From Methanosarcina sp. (lineage in GTDB: Archaea > Halobacteriota > Methanosarcinia > Methanosarcinales > Methanosarcinaceae): 21,535 bases of DNA. Location: positions 1 to 21,535 of the forward strand of contig JADGNM010000003.1 of the NCBI GenBank assembly GCA_017883485.1, given 5' to 3'. The position numbers were made by a program, and so were the translations under genes. The notes below the pieces were generated by a model, which was not told the DNA's origin, made no database searches, and was given only the letters and a program-made list of their open reading frames with translations. Shown here piece by piece: positions 14,467 through 21,399 of this stretch; the first letter of the stretch is position 1, and the number at the start of each line of letters is the position of its first letter.

Positions 14467-15222
14467 TTGCTTAAAAGCAAAAAAGGAGTCTTTGACAGGC
14501 TTTCAGATGCAGCTTTCAGGATCAAGAGACCAGAATTCAGGAAGGTCTCACACGAATCTCTTTTCGGATCCTGTCCTGTAATAGATGCCGATTTTGTTGA
14601 GATAAATGAAGATTTTCCTCCTGATTCTTCTTATAAATCAAAATCCGAGTCAATTCCGAACTCTGAGTCAATTGACCCCGAACTGCTGGAGAAACTCAGA
14701 GAGTACCTTAAAACAAGATCTCAGGAAGAAATCTCAGAGATATTTGAAGAAATCCGCAAAATTCTGGAAAACCGGGCTTCTAAAGACGAATACAAAGGCG
14801 AATTCAATAACAGCCGGGGAAGAAGAACTCATTATAATGAGGAAGTGAATATAAGAGAAAACCTTAAAAGCGCTTTCAGGTTTTGTTCGGAGACTGCTTC
14901 CCTTGGAATGGAGCGGATAATAAATATCTCAAAAGCTGCTTCCTCAACAGCCTCGTCAATAACATCCGGTGGAAAGGAATCTATAAAGGTCTCCTCGAAA
15001 ATGCTTAATGATAAATGGAATGACCTGAGTCCCAGGGACCGCAAAATCATTTCCGAAGTTATAATTGCATTGATTGAAATCGGGCTGCTCAGGAGTTCAT
15101 CAAAAGGCAAAAGGGCAGCATTTGCCATTCTGTCAAGCATATCCAGACGTCAAACACCGGGCAAAAATGACCTTGAAGAGTTTGTAGAAGGTGCGCGAGG
15201 GCTGTTCAAACGCAGGCGTTAA
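14467..15222 (+). CDS. Uncharacterised mostly helical protein, 251 aa
   Basis: Not matched to a family. The N-terminal half is polar with a serine-rich linker (SSYKSKSESIPNSESID, about residues 54-70) and a charged helix (ELLEKLREYLKTRSQEEISEIFEEIRKI cut here at its core). The C-terminal part holds a hydrophobic helix, ISEVIIALIEIGLLR (about 195-210), and ends in a basic tail, GLFKRRR. The start is TTG at 14467: no ATG or GTG exists in the open frame upstream (stop near 14416) and the next ATG is far inside; AAGGGGCG lies about 8 bases upstream. It is convergent with the ViaA-like gene and the two stop codons share TTAA. A link to the RavA/ViaA pair is possible by position but not shown. Confidence 0.65.
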   Translation: MLKSKKGVFDRLSDAAFRIKRPEFRKVSHESLFGSCPVIDADFVEINEDFPPDSSYKSKSESIPNSESIDPELLEKLREYLKTRSQEEISEIFEEIRKILENRASKDEYKGEFNNSRGRRTHYNEEVNIRENLKSAFRFCSETASLGMERIINISKAASSTASSITSGGKESIKVSSKMLNDKWNDLSPRDRKIISEVIIALIEIGLLRSSSKGKRAAFAILSSISRRQTPGKNDLEEFVEGARGLFKRRR

Positions 15223-16991
15223 AACCTGAGAGGCCGACTGATCGCCTTCACAAAGCTTGCCGGGCTTTCCCGGACTTCCCAGTTTCCTGCATCCCCTACG
15301 ATATATGTGTGGTCAGAAACCTTCTCTAACCCTCCAGCATCGTAATTTCCTATTATCAGGGAAAAAATCCTGGCTCTTCGTTCGGTTTTTATTTCATTCC
15401 ACTCTCTGATAAGAGGCGCTTCGGAAAGTTCGGAAGCCCCATCGGTAAGGAAAAGGATATCTGCTCCCTCAAAGGCTTTTTCTCCTTTCAATGTCTTCAG
15501 ACCTGCACGAAGTGCAGTATTGAAATCGGTGCCGCCGCCGAAAGTAAATTTGAGAAATTCCAGAAATTCCTGGCCCATACGCTTTTTATTTGTAAGCTCA
15601 ATTTCAAAGGTCTGCCACTTCGAGGAGAAGAGAATTACTTTAACATCTCTTCCTTCTTTCAGCATCCTTCTAGTAATCGCCAGCATCACGGCTTTTGCAA
15701 ATAACTCGGGAGCCCCCCGCATTGAGGCTGATGTATCAACCAGGGCAATGACAGGTCCCTTCCTTCTCTTTCCTGCAGTATCCGAGTTCCAGTTCTCCCC
15801 TCTAAGCTGGTAGGTCAGGAGTTTTTCTTCAAGCATGTCAGCGTAGAATTTGAGCTTTAAAGTCGGATTCTTCAGTTTTACGACTTCTATCGGAAGCAGT
15901 GTCTGGATATCGCTTGAAAAAGTAACTGAATGCACCTCATTTCTGCTATAAGGTGATAGACTCAATTTCTTTGAGCCGTACTCAAGTTCGATTCTCCCAA
16001 CCTGCTCAAGAATCTCCCGAAGGTCAGCTCTCTTCCTGAGAACTGCAGCATATCTTTCCAGGTTTCCGAAATATTCCCTATGCAATGCCCTTAACGAATA
16101 ATCCCACATCTTGCCTGGAAACAGCATTGAAAGGATTTCTAGCATCTCAAGGTGCTCCTCAAGGACAGGGATTAGCTCTTCAATTTTTGCAGCTATCGTA
16201 TCCCCTATTGTAATATCCAGTGCCTCCCCAGCCTTTTCGCCGAACATGAATTCCTGAGTCATTGAGGCAAGTCTTTCTGACCCTGCCATTGTTTCTGTCC
16301 GCTGGCCTGGATTTTCCTGATTTTCACTTTCAGGACTTCTCAAGAAATCGTCCTGATTATTTTCCCGCTTATTTTCCTGATTGTTCTTTTGCTTGTTTTC
16401 CTGCTTATTTTCCTGATCATTCTCTCCAGTTTGCTGTTTTTCCCTGGTATCCGGGCTTTCATACCAGCGGGGGGAATTCATCTCCATTGCCCGTCTCTCT
16501 CTCTTCTCCCATGCTACATGGGTATCATTGATTAGTTTCCCAAGAATCTTCAGGATTTTTTCCATGTTTTGGGAAAACTTTTTTGAAGACTTAAGTTCTT
16601 TTTCGTAAGCATCTAGCAGTGAGAATAGTTCGTTTAGCAAGGTTCTCAGGATAAATACTCCAGCCATGCTGTTAGTTCTGGCAAGAGCTTTTATTTCATT
16701 CCAGCCTTCTAAATTCCTTAGACTCAGAAATATAGGGAAAAAGACTCCGAATTTACCCATGAACAGCTTTTCATCCTTTATTTCATACTCTTTGTCTGAA
16801 AAAAACTCATAGATCAGGATTCCTGCAATTTCTTCCCTGAGCAGCCTTGGCATTTTTCGTGGAGTCGCCAGGACGTCTCTAAGTTCAACATTCAATATTG
16901 TGGAGGGATTGAAGGCATGGTCGAACTTTAAAGCTGAACCTGATCCGGATACACTTCCAAAATTTTCCTTCCAGTCTTTTAGTTCCTGCAT
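15219..16991 (-). CDS. viaA: ViaA-like von Willebrand factor A protein, 590 aa
   Basis: The C-terminal vWA domain has an intact MIDAS metal site: DTSAS (Asp419, Ser421, Ser423), Thr488 in FGGGTDFNTAL and Asp517 in FLTDGASEL. The N-terminal ~400 residues are helical, as in ViaA/CoxE-type partners of MoxR ATPases. At residues 186-213 there is a low-complexity Asn/Gln/Glu/Lys tract with repeated QENK units, which explains the extra length over E. coli ViaA (about 480). The protein is expected to act as the co-chaperone/adaptor of the AAA+ ATPase encoded 50 bases upstream; bacterial RavA-ViaA pairs act on respiratory or membrane complexes. Start ATG 16991 has only a weak ribosome binding site. 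Its stop overlaps the convergent unknown gene by four bases. Family secure; exact orthology to ViaA less so. Confidence 0.82.
   Translation of the reverse strand: MQELKDWKENFGSVSGSGSALKFDHAFNPSTILNVELRDVLATPRKMPRLLREEIAGILIYEFFSDKEYEIKDEKLFMGKFGVFFPIFLSLRNLEGWNEIKALARTNSMAGVFILRTLLNELFSLLDAYEKELKSSKKFSQNMEKILKILGKLINDTHVAWEKRERRAMEMNSPRWYESPDTREKQQTGENDQENKQENKQKNNQENKRENNQDDFLRSPESENQENPGQRTETMAGSERLASMTQEFMFGEKAGEALDITIGDTIAAKIEELIPVLEEHLEMLEILSMLFPGKMWDYSLRALHREYFGNLERYAAVLRKRADLREILEQVGRIELEYGSKKLSLSPYSRNEVHSVTFSSDIQTLLPIEVVKLKNPTLKLKFYADMLEEKLLTYQLRGENWNSDTAGKRRKGPVIALVDTSASMRGAPELFAKAVMLAITRRMLKEGRDVKVILFSSKWQTFEIELTNKKRMGQEFLEFLKFTFGGGTDFNTALRAGLKTLKGEKAFEGADILFLTDGASELSEAPLIREWNEIKTERRARIFSLIIGNYDAGGLEKVSDHTYIVGDAGNWEVRESPASFVKAISRPLRF
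16351..16422. repeat. Imperfect tandem repeat coding for the NQEK-rich linker
   Basis: Units close to TTTTCCTGATTA/TTTTCCTGCTTA recur roughly every 12-15 bases on the plus strand, inside the ViaA-like gene. They encode QENK/NNQ units. Such tracts expand and shrink by slippage, so linker length probably varies among relatives. Confidence 0.55.
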
Positions 16992-19033: not shown

Positions 19034-19777
19034 ATGAATAATTTCGAGCGCGAAAAATACAGCCGGCAGATCCTTCTTTTTGGGGAAGAGGGGCAGGAAA
19101 AGCTGAAGAATGCAAAAGTACTGGTCGCCGGCGCAGGCGGGCTCGGCAGTCCGATCTCCACATATCTTGCAATTGCCGGAGTCGGAAAATTAATTCTTGT
19201 AGATTTCGATTTTGTTGATCCCAGCAATCTGAACAGACAGTTTCTCCATCATGAAAAGGACATTGGAAGGACTAAGGTGGAATCAGCAAAGGAAAAGCTT
19301 CTTTCTATGAATCCTGAGATTGAGGTTGAGACAATCGGAGAAATGCTTACCGAATCAAACGTCGAAGCTTTAATACCAGAATGCGACATTATAGTAGATG
19401 CCCTGGATAATCTCGAAACCAGACACATGCTTAACAGGCTTGCCATAAAAAGGAGAATTCCTTTGATTCACGGGGCTGTTATGGGGTATGATGGTCAGGT
19501 GACAACTATAATTCCAGGAAAAACCCCATGTTTTTACTGTATTTTTCCGCGCATCTCCAGGAAGGAGGTCTTTCCGGTACTTGGAACGACTCCGGGAATT
19601 ATCGGCTCTATTCAGGCAAACGAAGCGATTAAATTCCTGACAGGACAGGGAAAACTGCTGGAGGGTCGCCTTCTGTTCTGGAATGGGCTTTCAGGAAATT
19701 TCAGCGAAATCTCACTCTCAAAGTTAAATAATTGCCCAGTTTGCGGATTTCTTAATGAAATAAATGAAAATAAATAA
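19034..19777 (+). CDS. E1-like adenylating enzyme, ThiF/MoeB/HesA family, 247 aa
   Basis: The nucleotide-binding loop is VAGAGGLGSP (31-40), the adenylate-binding residues are Asp57/Asp59 in VDFDFVD, Arg68 in SNLNRQF and Lys81, and the zinc site is Cys166/Cys169 (CFYC) with Cys234/Cys237 (CPVC). It activates the C-terminal glycine of a ubiquitin-like sulfur carrier (MoaD, ThiS or archaeal SAMP) with ATP. The segment that holds the sulfur- or thioester-forming cysteine in ThiF or UbaA reads SRKEVFPVLGTTPG here and has no cysteine. So it probably only adenylates, or hands sulfur on differently. GGAGG six bases before ATG 19034 is strong. No carrier-protein gene is visible nearby. Molybdopterin, thiamine and tRNA thiolation roles cannot be separated. 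Confidence 0.88.
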   Translation: MNNFEREKYSRQILLFGEEGQEKLKNAKVLVAGAGGLGSPISTYLAIAGVGKLILVDFDFVDPSNLNRQFLHHEKDIGRTKVESAKEKLLSMNPEIEVETIGEMLTESNVEALIPECDIIVDALDNLETRHMLNRLAIKRRIPLIHGAVMGYDGQVTTIIPGKTPCFYCIFPRISRKEVFPVLGTTPGIIGSIQANEAIKFLTGQGKLLEGRLLFWNGLSGNFSEISLSKLNNCPVCGFLNEINENK

Positions 19778-19820
19778 AACTTTCGCTCTTTTCAGGCTGT
19801 ATAAACCTTTTTTTAATTCT

Positions 19821-19900
19821 TGCCTATTGATCAAATTTTATGCCTATCGATCAAATTTCATGCCTATCGATCAAATTTCATGCCTATCGATCAAATTTTA
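19821..19900 (+). repeat. Four tandem 20-bp repeats upstream of the HExxH gene
   Basis: TGCCTATCGATCAAATTTCA is repeated four times head to tail (19821, 19841, 19861, 19881). Copies 2 and 3 are identical; copy 1 has TTGATC and ends TTTTA; copy 4 ends TTTTA. Each has the palindromic core ATCGAT (ATTGAT in copy 1). The array ends exactly where the TATA box begins. Twenty bases is about two helical turns, so all sites face one side of the DNA. Confidence 0.9.
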
Positions 19901-19908
19901 TATATCTT
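19896..19908 (+). promoter_or_regulatory. TATA box of the HExxH gene
   Basis: TTTTATATATCTT directly follows the fourth repeat. Transcription should start near 19930, giving a ~20-base leader with GGAG at 19941-19944 five bases before the GTG start at 19950. Confidence 0.6.
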
Positions 19909-19949
19909 TAGTGATAATACTCTATAAGAATGATATACGAGGAGATATT

Positions 19950-20888
19950 GTGAAAAGGAAGGCTCGGCTAACTGAGAATAAAAATAGCGATCAGCAAGAT
20001 GGCTCAGGCTCATGTCCTTACAAATTTAGTGGGCTTAATTCATCTGCGCCTTATTTTTATTATGCCTCAGTTCAGAACACTCCCTATTTGGATCTAGTCT
20101 ATCGAGAATCCAGTGTGAAGTCATTGATAAGAGCGCACAGTAAAGATATGTACCGATTGCTTGAGAAAGTTAATTTTGATGGAAAATACCACAGGGTAAA
20201 GTGTGTAAAATCCGAGGAATGGGAATGCTGCTGGGACCTGGCAGTCAGAATTCAGTTTTTTGGCAAAATTCAGGGAATGGTCCTATATCCGAAACGGCTG
20301 GTCTCACAGAAAGAAAAAAGGATTGTTTACAGGTCCATAATTGTAATTAACCCCTATCAGCTCTGGGACGAGACCCTTGTAAATAGATTCTGGAACCTGC
20401 AGGAGAGAGTTGAATTCCTGATAGCCAGAATTCTTTATCACGAATGCATTCACGTCATAATCTCACTTGCAGATGTCCTGCCTTCAAGTTTTGAAAATAC
20501 GGATATTTTCCTCGAGTTTAGAAAGATGCTGGAAGTCTCATGTTCTAAAAAGCTTTGCACCGAGCTTCACAGTGTGCAGTTCCGCCTCTGGAACCTTGTC
20601 CTTTTTGGAGCGTCAGGTTCCGAAAGCGAACAGAAATTGCTCGAAAGAGTCCAGGAGATCTACGAATTCCTTATTAATGAAAAATACAGTAACGATAAAA
20701 CCGGAAAGGTTTTCCATTTTCCTTCGAACAACGAAAAAATAGCCAGAAAATACGCATGGATGGCAGCTGTCAAAGCCGGAGGGGATACCCAGGTTAGCAA
20801 AAGAGTATGGGAAGTGGAAGTCCGCAGGCTCAGCATAGACTTGAGGAAACTCTATAACGAAATTGACACGCAGATGCGTGAGAGCTGA
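19950..20888 (+). CDS. Unknown protein with HExxH zinc-protease signature, 312 aa
   Basis: The sequence VEFLIARILYHECIHVIISLADVLP contains HECIH (His164, Glu165, His168) inside a hydrophobic helix, the usual active-site form of zincin metalloproteases. Glu189 and Glu195 in FLEFRKMLE are possible third ligands. No family was recognised. The N-terminus is polar and has a cysteine (GSGSCPYKF), and there is no signal peptide or membrane segment, so a cytosolic location is likely. GTG 19950 is chosen from the GGAG five bases upstream and the TATA box; an open frame back to ATG 19764 would translate the tandem repeats and overlap the E1-like gene, so it is rejected. Four 20-bp repeats stand before its promoter. 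It is convergent with the peroxiredoxin gene 28 bases away. The peptidase role is an inference from one motif. Confidence 0.7.
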   Translation: MKRKARLTENKNSDQQDGSGSCPYKFSGLNSSAPYFYYASVQNTPYLDLVYRESSVKSLIRAHSKDMYRLLEKVNFDGKYHRVKCVKSEEWECCWDLAVRIQFFGKIQGMVLYPKRLVSQKEKRIVYRSIIVINPYQLWDETLVNRFWNLQERVEFLIARILYHECIHVIISLADVLPSSFENTDIFLEFRKMLEVSCSKKLCTELHSVQFRLWNLVLFGASGSESEQKLLERVQEIYEFLINEKYSNDKTGKVFHFPSNNEKIARKYAWMAAVKAGGDTQVSKRVWEVEVRRLSIDLRKLYNEIDTQMRES

Positions 20889-20916: not shown

Positions 20917-21399
20917 CTACTTTTTCCTTTCCGTTTCTCCCTGCGTCTCCAGGACTTTTGTTATCTCCGCCATGTCTGGAAGCTCGTGAGCCGGAAATAC
21001 TTTAAAGAATATTACTTTTTGTTCCTCGTCAATAATTATGTTTGCTCTTTCGGAGACGCCTTCCTTTTCCCTGAATATTCCATATTCTCTGGCAACTTCC
21101 CCATGCGGCCAGAAATCCGAAAGTAACTTGATGTGCGTAATCCCGAGCTCCCTCGCCCAGGCTCTTTTTGATGGTACGGGATCCACACTTATGCCAAAGG
21201 CTACTGTGTTCAGATTGTCGAACAACTCATAATTTTCCTCAAGTGCTTTCATCTGCTCTGCACATACTCTGGTCCAGGCAAGCGGATGGAACGATAGGAG
21301 CACGTTCTTGCCGCGGAAGTCATCGAGATGAACTTCCTTCTCTTTTTGGTCTCTTAACCTGAAATCCTGAATTTTATCCCCGATCTCTATCTCAGTCAT
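20917..21399 (-). CDS. One-cysteine peroxiredoxin (AhpC/TSA family), 160 aa
   Basis: The thioredoxin-fold peroxiredoxin pattern is clear: IGDKIQDFRLRDQKEKEVHLDDFRGKNVLLSFHPLAWTRVC, whose last part (PLAWTRVC) is the PxxxTxxC active site with the peroxidatic Cys. It is the only cysteine in the protein, so it must be reduced by an outside thiol. The nearest known types are AhpE/Bcp-like one-Cys enzymes of about 150-160 residues. It removes hydrogen peroxide or organic peroxides in the cytosol, useful for a strict anaerobe rich in iron-sulfur enzymes such as the two aconitase-type proteins here. GGGGGATT lies four bases before ATG 21399. It ends 28 bases from the convergent HExxH gene, where a T-rich tract may stop both transcripts. 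Confidence 0.9.
   Translation of the reverse strand: MTEIEIGDKIQDFRLRDQKEKEVHLDDFRGKNVLLSFHPLAWTRVCAEQMKALEENYELFDNLNTVAFGISVDPVPSKRAWARELGITHIKLLSDFWPHGEVAREYGIFREKEGVSERANIIIDEEQKVIFFKVFPAHELPDMAEITKVLETQGETERKK

Follow-up and report, generated by a model that had tools for sequence, protein, structure and literature searches.

A 20-bp tandem array, most likely duplicated promoter sequence, upstream of the gene for a predicted HExxH peptidase in Methanosarcina

The gluzincins of peptidase clan MA, e.g., IrrE/PprI and the lethal-factor-type peptidases, form one background for the locus described here. For promoters of Methanosarcina, the available part of PMC11409679 gives a core consensus composed of a 5-bp B recognition element (BRE, CAAAA), 2 bp and the TATA box TTTATATA, with transcription starting about 23 bp further. 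In the accessible portions of two other reports, eCIS_core (DUF4157) is a marker domain fused to or located beside the toxins of extracellular contractile injection systems (eCIS) (PMC8213781, PMC11297309); the main texts of both contain neither the word Methanosarcina nor the word M91. We analysed a 21,535-nucleotide stretch of DNA from Methanosarcina sp. (contig JADGNM010000003.1 of assembly GCA_017883485.1; hereafter the window), in which four 20-bp units in tandem run into a TATA box upstream of a gene for a 312-residue protein with an HExxH motif. The genome of the window is assembled in 453 contigs and is 81.67% complete. We consider it probable that the gene encodes a gluzincin-like metallopeptidase under an ordinary promoter of BRE and TATA box, whose BRE-side half has been duplicated in tandem in the lineage of the window.

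The array within the promoter of the HExxH gene

Tandem Repeats Finder located the array at 19817-19898 with a period of 20, 4.1 copies, 93% matches and a score of 143, whereas 100 dinucleotide-preserving shuffles of the window reached 61 at best. The four head-to-tail copies running into a TATA box, as reported in a preliminary description made from the sequence of the window alone, are thus real. When the units are set in register (Table 1), unit 1 reads TATTGATCAA, a sequence also seen in several relatives, and units 2-4 read TATCGATCAA. Unit 1 contains TATTGATC, again like several relatives; TATCGATC is common to units 2-4. The 20-mer named in the preliminary description is found exactly in units 2 and 3, with two bases differing in unit 1 and one in unit 4. 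Because of the published geometry of Methanosarcina promoters, the repeated unit can be recognised as the BRE side of the promoter together with the initial bases of the TATA box. If the spacing is about 23 bp, as given in the available text of PMC11409679, transcription would be expected to start near 19927. The GTG start codon of the 312-residue protein follows at 19950, 49 bases past the last unit, and the HECIH protein previously placed 3' of the array is indeed encoded there.

We compared the promoter with those of the relatives. Out of 48 loci, 29 distinct promoters other than that of the window could be scored, after setting aside the window itself, 14 identical promoters, three without a TATA match and one with a short upstream region. 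The 20 bp next to the TATA box match the preceding 20 bp at 19/20 positions in the window and at 5-12/20 in the 29 others. Even at the best offset within 100 bp upstream, the others reach 10-16/20, the value of 16 being due to a T-rich stretch. The unit is single in all 29, none of which has a second copy 20 bp upstream (0/29). Relatives have an ordinary core promoter 5' of the gene, e.g., TGCCTATTGGTCAATTTTTATATATC. When 60 bp, i.e., three units, are omitted from the window, its promoter aligns with 24 ortholog promoters, chosen as distinct main-locus promoters, with small gaps and close to the layout of the relatives. The alignment reaches upstream to the AAACCTTT stretch, exact in 10/24 ortholog promoters, and runs downstream through the well-conserved stretch around AGTAATAATAT.

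Short arrays are not confined to the window. Tandem arrays were detected in 8/29 intergenic regions between the ThiF/MoeB-like gene and the HExxH gene (the window counted), most of them with other units and at other places, and the remaining 21/29 regions have none. As the arrays of loci L011 and L041 are one array in close relatives, the eight regions represent at most seven distinct cases; a relationship is also possible between the 10-mers of L010 and the L011/L041 pair. In the genome of another relative, a 10-mer is repeated 16.7 times between the two genes. Arrays with a score of at least 100 are common in general: we counted 24 in 135,344 bp from the loci of 11 relatives, including two of the same intergenic region and one CRISPR-like array, and two of the 11 loci had none. 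Since other short arrays sit between the same two genes in relatives, local tandem duplication is the likeliest origin, and the array of the window is most likely a lineage-specific local tandem duplication of promoter sequence. Genome G085 has 3.7 copies of an unrelated 20-mer, AATCTCTGAAATTAGCTGGA, between these two genes (L012; L065:7094-7167). A search of viral contigs for the array gave no match. In the literature, of which parts were available, we recognised no description of a tandem array or duplication in promoters of Methanosarcina or other archaea, although one may exist.

In the simplest history, a first tandem duplication and then additional copying would have added three 20-bp units (60 bp) in the lineage of the window. 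The TATA box adjoining unit 4 would still direct transcription initiation, and one ordinary promoter of BRE and TATA box would drive the gene of a predicted, probably cytosolic peptidase specific to the archaeal family of the window. Units 1-3, which are without a full TATA box, may be inert or offer at most weak extra contacts for transcription factor B (TFB); alternatively, they may act by pushing upstream elements 60 bp away. The effect of the array is probably little or modest.

The HExxH family and its eCIS_core-fused relatives

The HECIH motif occupies residues 164-168 of the protein. The preliminary description had made much depend on the conservation of these residues in homologues; HExxH is kept in 120/120 of those listed, the best 120 of 177 found (another homologue set comprised 120 of 196). 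It is also present in all 31 rows of alignment A1, which include a second, paralogous group of about 50% identity. The family occurs in 27/30 genomes of the genus Methanosarcina, in 33/237 genomes of the class and in 20/392 genomes drawn from the phylum, the last belonging to 2/136 genera. Library searches with the 312-residue protein returned a sub-threshold match only in Pfam, no match in NCBIfam and PADLOC, chance-level matches only in PHROGs and no match among PDB sequences. The statement that it belongs to no recognised family accordingly stands for these libraries, none of which names it above threshold.

Profile searches identified a sole relative outside the archaeal family of the window (E 2e-10), in genome G225, which is of the same class but of another family (f7). 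In its 577-residue frame, eCIS_core (PF13699, E 8e-29) precedes a domain that matches Peptidase_M91 below the threshold (E 0.0021, 18.8 bits vs. a cut-off of 25). A search with the C-terminal part of this frame found five proteins, itself counted (P0129-P0133), every one of them with eCIS_core. The kinship is backed by BLASTP, with an E of 3e-08 for the single pair and 22% identity across 175 columns, and by a profile-profile comparison with a probability of 97.4% (E 1.3e-11). The reverse search with the eCIS-fused domain through the 392 genomes retrieved solely members of the window family, from 10 genomes; the gene of the window itself fell below the threshold in this search, and G225 is outside the 392 drawn genomes. 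From these similarities, we infer common ancestry for the family and the eCIS-fused domains. The sequence data would fit the change from an effector to a resident enzyme as well as the reverse direction.

The alignment of 43 family members with the five fusions revealed 21 shared near-invariant positions, among which H164, E165, H168, E244 and D306 are the only His, Glu or Asp residues near-invariant in both groups. As one of these few, E244 is the preferred candidate for a third zinc ligand of the gluzincin type. We also considered E189, which is invariant in 120/120 listed homologues but only within the window family; it was dropped as the favoured third ligand because it is absent from the remote relatives, whereas E244 is kept. 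The protein would bind zinc via H164, H168 and probably E244 and may cleave some intracellular protein. It reads as a family-specific, gluzincin-like predicted peptidase with effector-domain kin, and the family would be a new one of a known kind, the gluzincin-like HExxH proteins, linked unexpectedly to effector domains of eCIS.

Two further observations concern the reading frames of the family. The presence of in-frame TAG or TGA codons in some paralog frames raised the idea of pyrrolysine, which we rejected as the codons are not internal to the aligned protein at the six loci examined. One ortholog (L049, G100:C9:300760-301691) is split over two frames, by a frameshift or an assembly error.

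Competing explanations

The closest competitor of the promoter-duplication reading, possible but clearly less probable, is that the unit copies serve as extra weak core-promoter elements, through TFB contacts or upstream starts, and that their copy number tunes expression. The two overlap, because the promoter-duplication reading sets no size for the effect. The BRE position and the first TATA-box bases are repeated in each unit, and unit 1 ends with TTTTATG, a partial TATA box, as copy-number tuning would suggest. However, TTTATATA itself is absent from units 1-3, and the conserved downstream stretch follows unit 4 only.

As for the protein, its HExxH might be a structural remnant in a non-catalytic member of a zincin-like fold. 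The structure model of the 312-residue protein (predicted local distance difference test score, pLDDT, 81.3; predicted template modelling score, pTM, 0.78) places strands before the HExxH helix. Foldseek searches with this model found no match in PDB or BFVD at E <= 0.001, and VIA-align returned weak matches only, mostly helical proteins matching the C-terminal helices; a separate model of residues 46-222 had a pLDDT of 42.3 and was unusable. These weak structural matches speak for a remnant. We nevertheless regard it as unlikely, given that H164, E165, H168 and E244 are invariant across two groups that are only about 22% identical, with HExxH in 5/5 eCIS_core fusions. The cytosolic metallopeptidase proposed in the preliminary description remains a reasonable reading; as to a zincin fold, the model had weak matches by VIA-align and none by Foldseek at E <= 0.001. 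The protein is probably cytosolic.

The preliminary description had likened the array to a multi-site operator, in which a dimeric regulator on each unit would block TFB or loop the DNA. The 20-bp phasing of the units, about two helical turns, is compatible with such an operator. Two observations weigh in its favour, as signs of some constraint. Firstly, 13/24 ortholog promoters have TTGNNCAA at the BRE, a symmetric site with half-site symmetry TTGRYCAA and a variable central pair. Secondly, the genome of the window contains six matches to the unit-plus-TATA motif TTGRYCAAWTTTTATATA with up to two mismatches vs. two for a reversed-pattern control. Over five genomes, however, the same search gave 38 matches vs. 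39 for the control (14/17, 5/6, 7/9 and 6/5 in the other four), and the only perfect match is the promoter of the same HExxH gene, in three of the five genomes. The CAA half of the symmetric site is expected from the BRE itself, and units 2-4 of the window have lost one half of it (TCGATCAA). With a single unit in 29/29 other scorable promoters, several sites are not kept in the relatives, and different arrays occupy the same place in other lineages. The preliminary description had proposed to look for the 20-mer elsewhere in the genome: the array was found only at this locus of the 81.67% complete genome, with three further 2-mismatch matches vs. three for the control, and a longer promoter pattern matched unit 4 only (control, one). 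Taken together, these results and the BRE/TATA-flank nature of the unit make an operator improbable.

Could the protein itself be injected by an eCIS as a cargo effector, rather than act as a resident enzyme? Its sole remote relatives found are eCIS_core fusions, and the accessible portions of PMC8213781 and PMC11297309 tie this domain to eCIS toxins. On the other hand, a Pfam search detected no eCIS_core in the window protein or the 31 A1 members. The family is present in 27/30 genomes of the genus and eCIS_core matches in 8/30, which makes a resident cytosolic role likelier than delivery by an injection particle. No eCIS_core match was obtained in the incomplete genome of the window, which is one of the 20/27 family-carrying genus genomes without such a match; other eCIS genes were not searched for. 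We deem the cargo explanation very improbable. The branch of the window lacks eCIS_core, and the product would probably stay inside the cell. The eight genomes with eCIS_core (G077, G089, G106, G054, G091, G100, G103 and G061) have two to five matches each, often clustered, and contractile injection systems may be present in a part of the genus.

We give even less credence to a more elaborate scenario, in which a protease domain akin to the effectors of contractile injection particles became a resident regulatory peptidase in the Methanosarcina lineage, a dimeric repressor binds TTGRYCAA over the BRE, and the dose of its sites has risen fourfold in the lineage of the window; repressor control enters this scenario because this peptidase would be dangerous to the cell. 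Finally, an array that is coding, with translation starting inside it and giving an N-terminal extension, is hardly credible: although the frame is open from an ATG at 19764 (374 residues) and the database sequence P0001 (342 residues) begins at an ATG at 19860, the junction of units 2 and 3, the proposed starts lie 5' of the TATA box, the start of most aligned orthologs is close to that at 19950, and no peptide is repeated because each 20-bp copy shifts the frame. P0001 can start at 19860 as the frame is open there by chance; this N-terminus, inside the array and 5' of the TATA box, is probably wrong.

Neighbouring genes and comparison with described systems

Table 1. Positions of the promoter elements and genes at the HExxH locus in the window.
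Feature	Position	Strand	Remarks
Four head-to-tail 20-bp units	19821..19900	+	In register: 19821-19840, 19841-19860, 19861-19880, 19881-19900
BRE position, ATCAA	19890..19894	+	Inside unit 4; predicted from the published Methanosarcina geometry (available part), 5 bp long and ending 2 bp before the TATA box
TATA box, TTTATATA	19897..19904	+	Shares its first four bases with the end of unit 4; same place in ortholog promoters
Stretch 3' of the TATA box, approximately TATATATCYTCAGTAATAATATCYTATAGGG	19901..19935	+	Well conserved in relatives
GAGGAG, likely ribosome binding site	19939..19944	+	Relatives have similar G-rich sites before the start
Gene for the 312-residue HExxH protein	19950..20888	+	H164, E165, H168; E244, also invariant, is the leading candidate as third zinc ligand
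ThiF/MoeB-like E1-type protein	19034..19777	+	Conserved upstream neighbour; library match
AhpC/TSA-type peroxiredoxin	20917..21399	-	Convergent downstream neighbour; library match

The ThiF/MoeB-like gene is located directly upstream of the HExxH gene on the same strand in 36/41 loci (the window counted; some genomes are counted more than once). Of the five loci without it, four are from the paralogous group or from a different genus, and the contig of the fifth ends too early. A functional link between the two genes is possible; as a separate TATA box precedes the HExxH gene, they need not form one operon. The AhpC/TSA-type neighbour was found in 20/41 loci (the window again counted), many of which have short flanks. 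Elsewhere in the window, a 12-bp repeat of 5.4 copies (16351-16415) lies inside the gene at 15219-16991, where it encodes a Gln/Asn/Lys-rich linker; this gene appears VWA-like by eye only.

The locus adds a small zincin-like family that none of the searched libraries names and that is linked by sequence to eCIS_core-fused domains; the function of a domain of this type could thereby be studied in a genetically tractable and non-pathogenic host. The array points to in situ copying of an archaeal core promoter, and it could serve as a naturally occurring test for an effect of additional BRE half-sites on expression.

Against the clan MA gluzincins, IrrE/PprI and the lethal-factor-type peptidases included, neither sequence comparison nor Foldseek gave the window protein a significant match. 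Peptidase_M91 (PF14891), a family of effector proteins that we take to be of the NleD type, has HExxH in common with it. Four of the five eCIS-fused relatives match this family below the threshold (best 19.5 bits vs. the curated 25), and neither the window protein nor the 31 A1 members match it. The PF14891 search gave no match in the 30 genus genomes nor in 14 control genomes, so that absence is not demonstrated by it. The five eCIS_core fusions (PF13699) are homologous to the window protein from the HExxH region to the C-terminus, less surely before it, and share with its family the near-invariant H, E, H, E and D. Unlike them, the window protein is without eCIS_core and occurs in genomes without detected eCIS_core. 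The core promoter of Methanosarcina, as outlined in the available part of its description, is matched in layout by unit 4 of the window and the bases after it. In contrast to that promoter, the window holds the BRE-side half four times, has ATCAA at the BRE position, and carries its extra units without a full TATA box.
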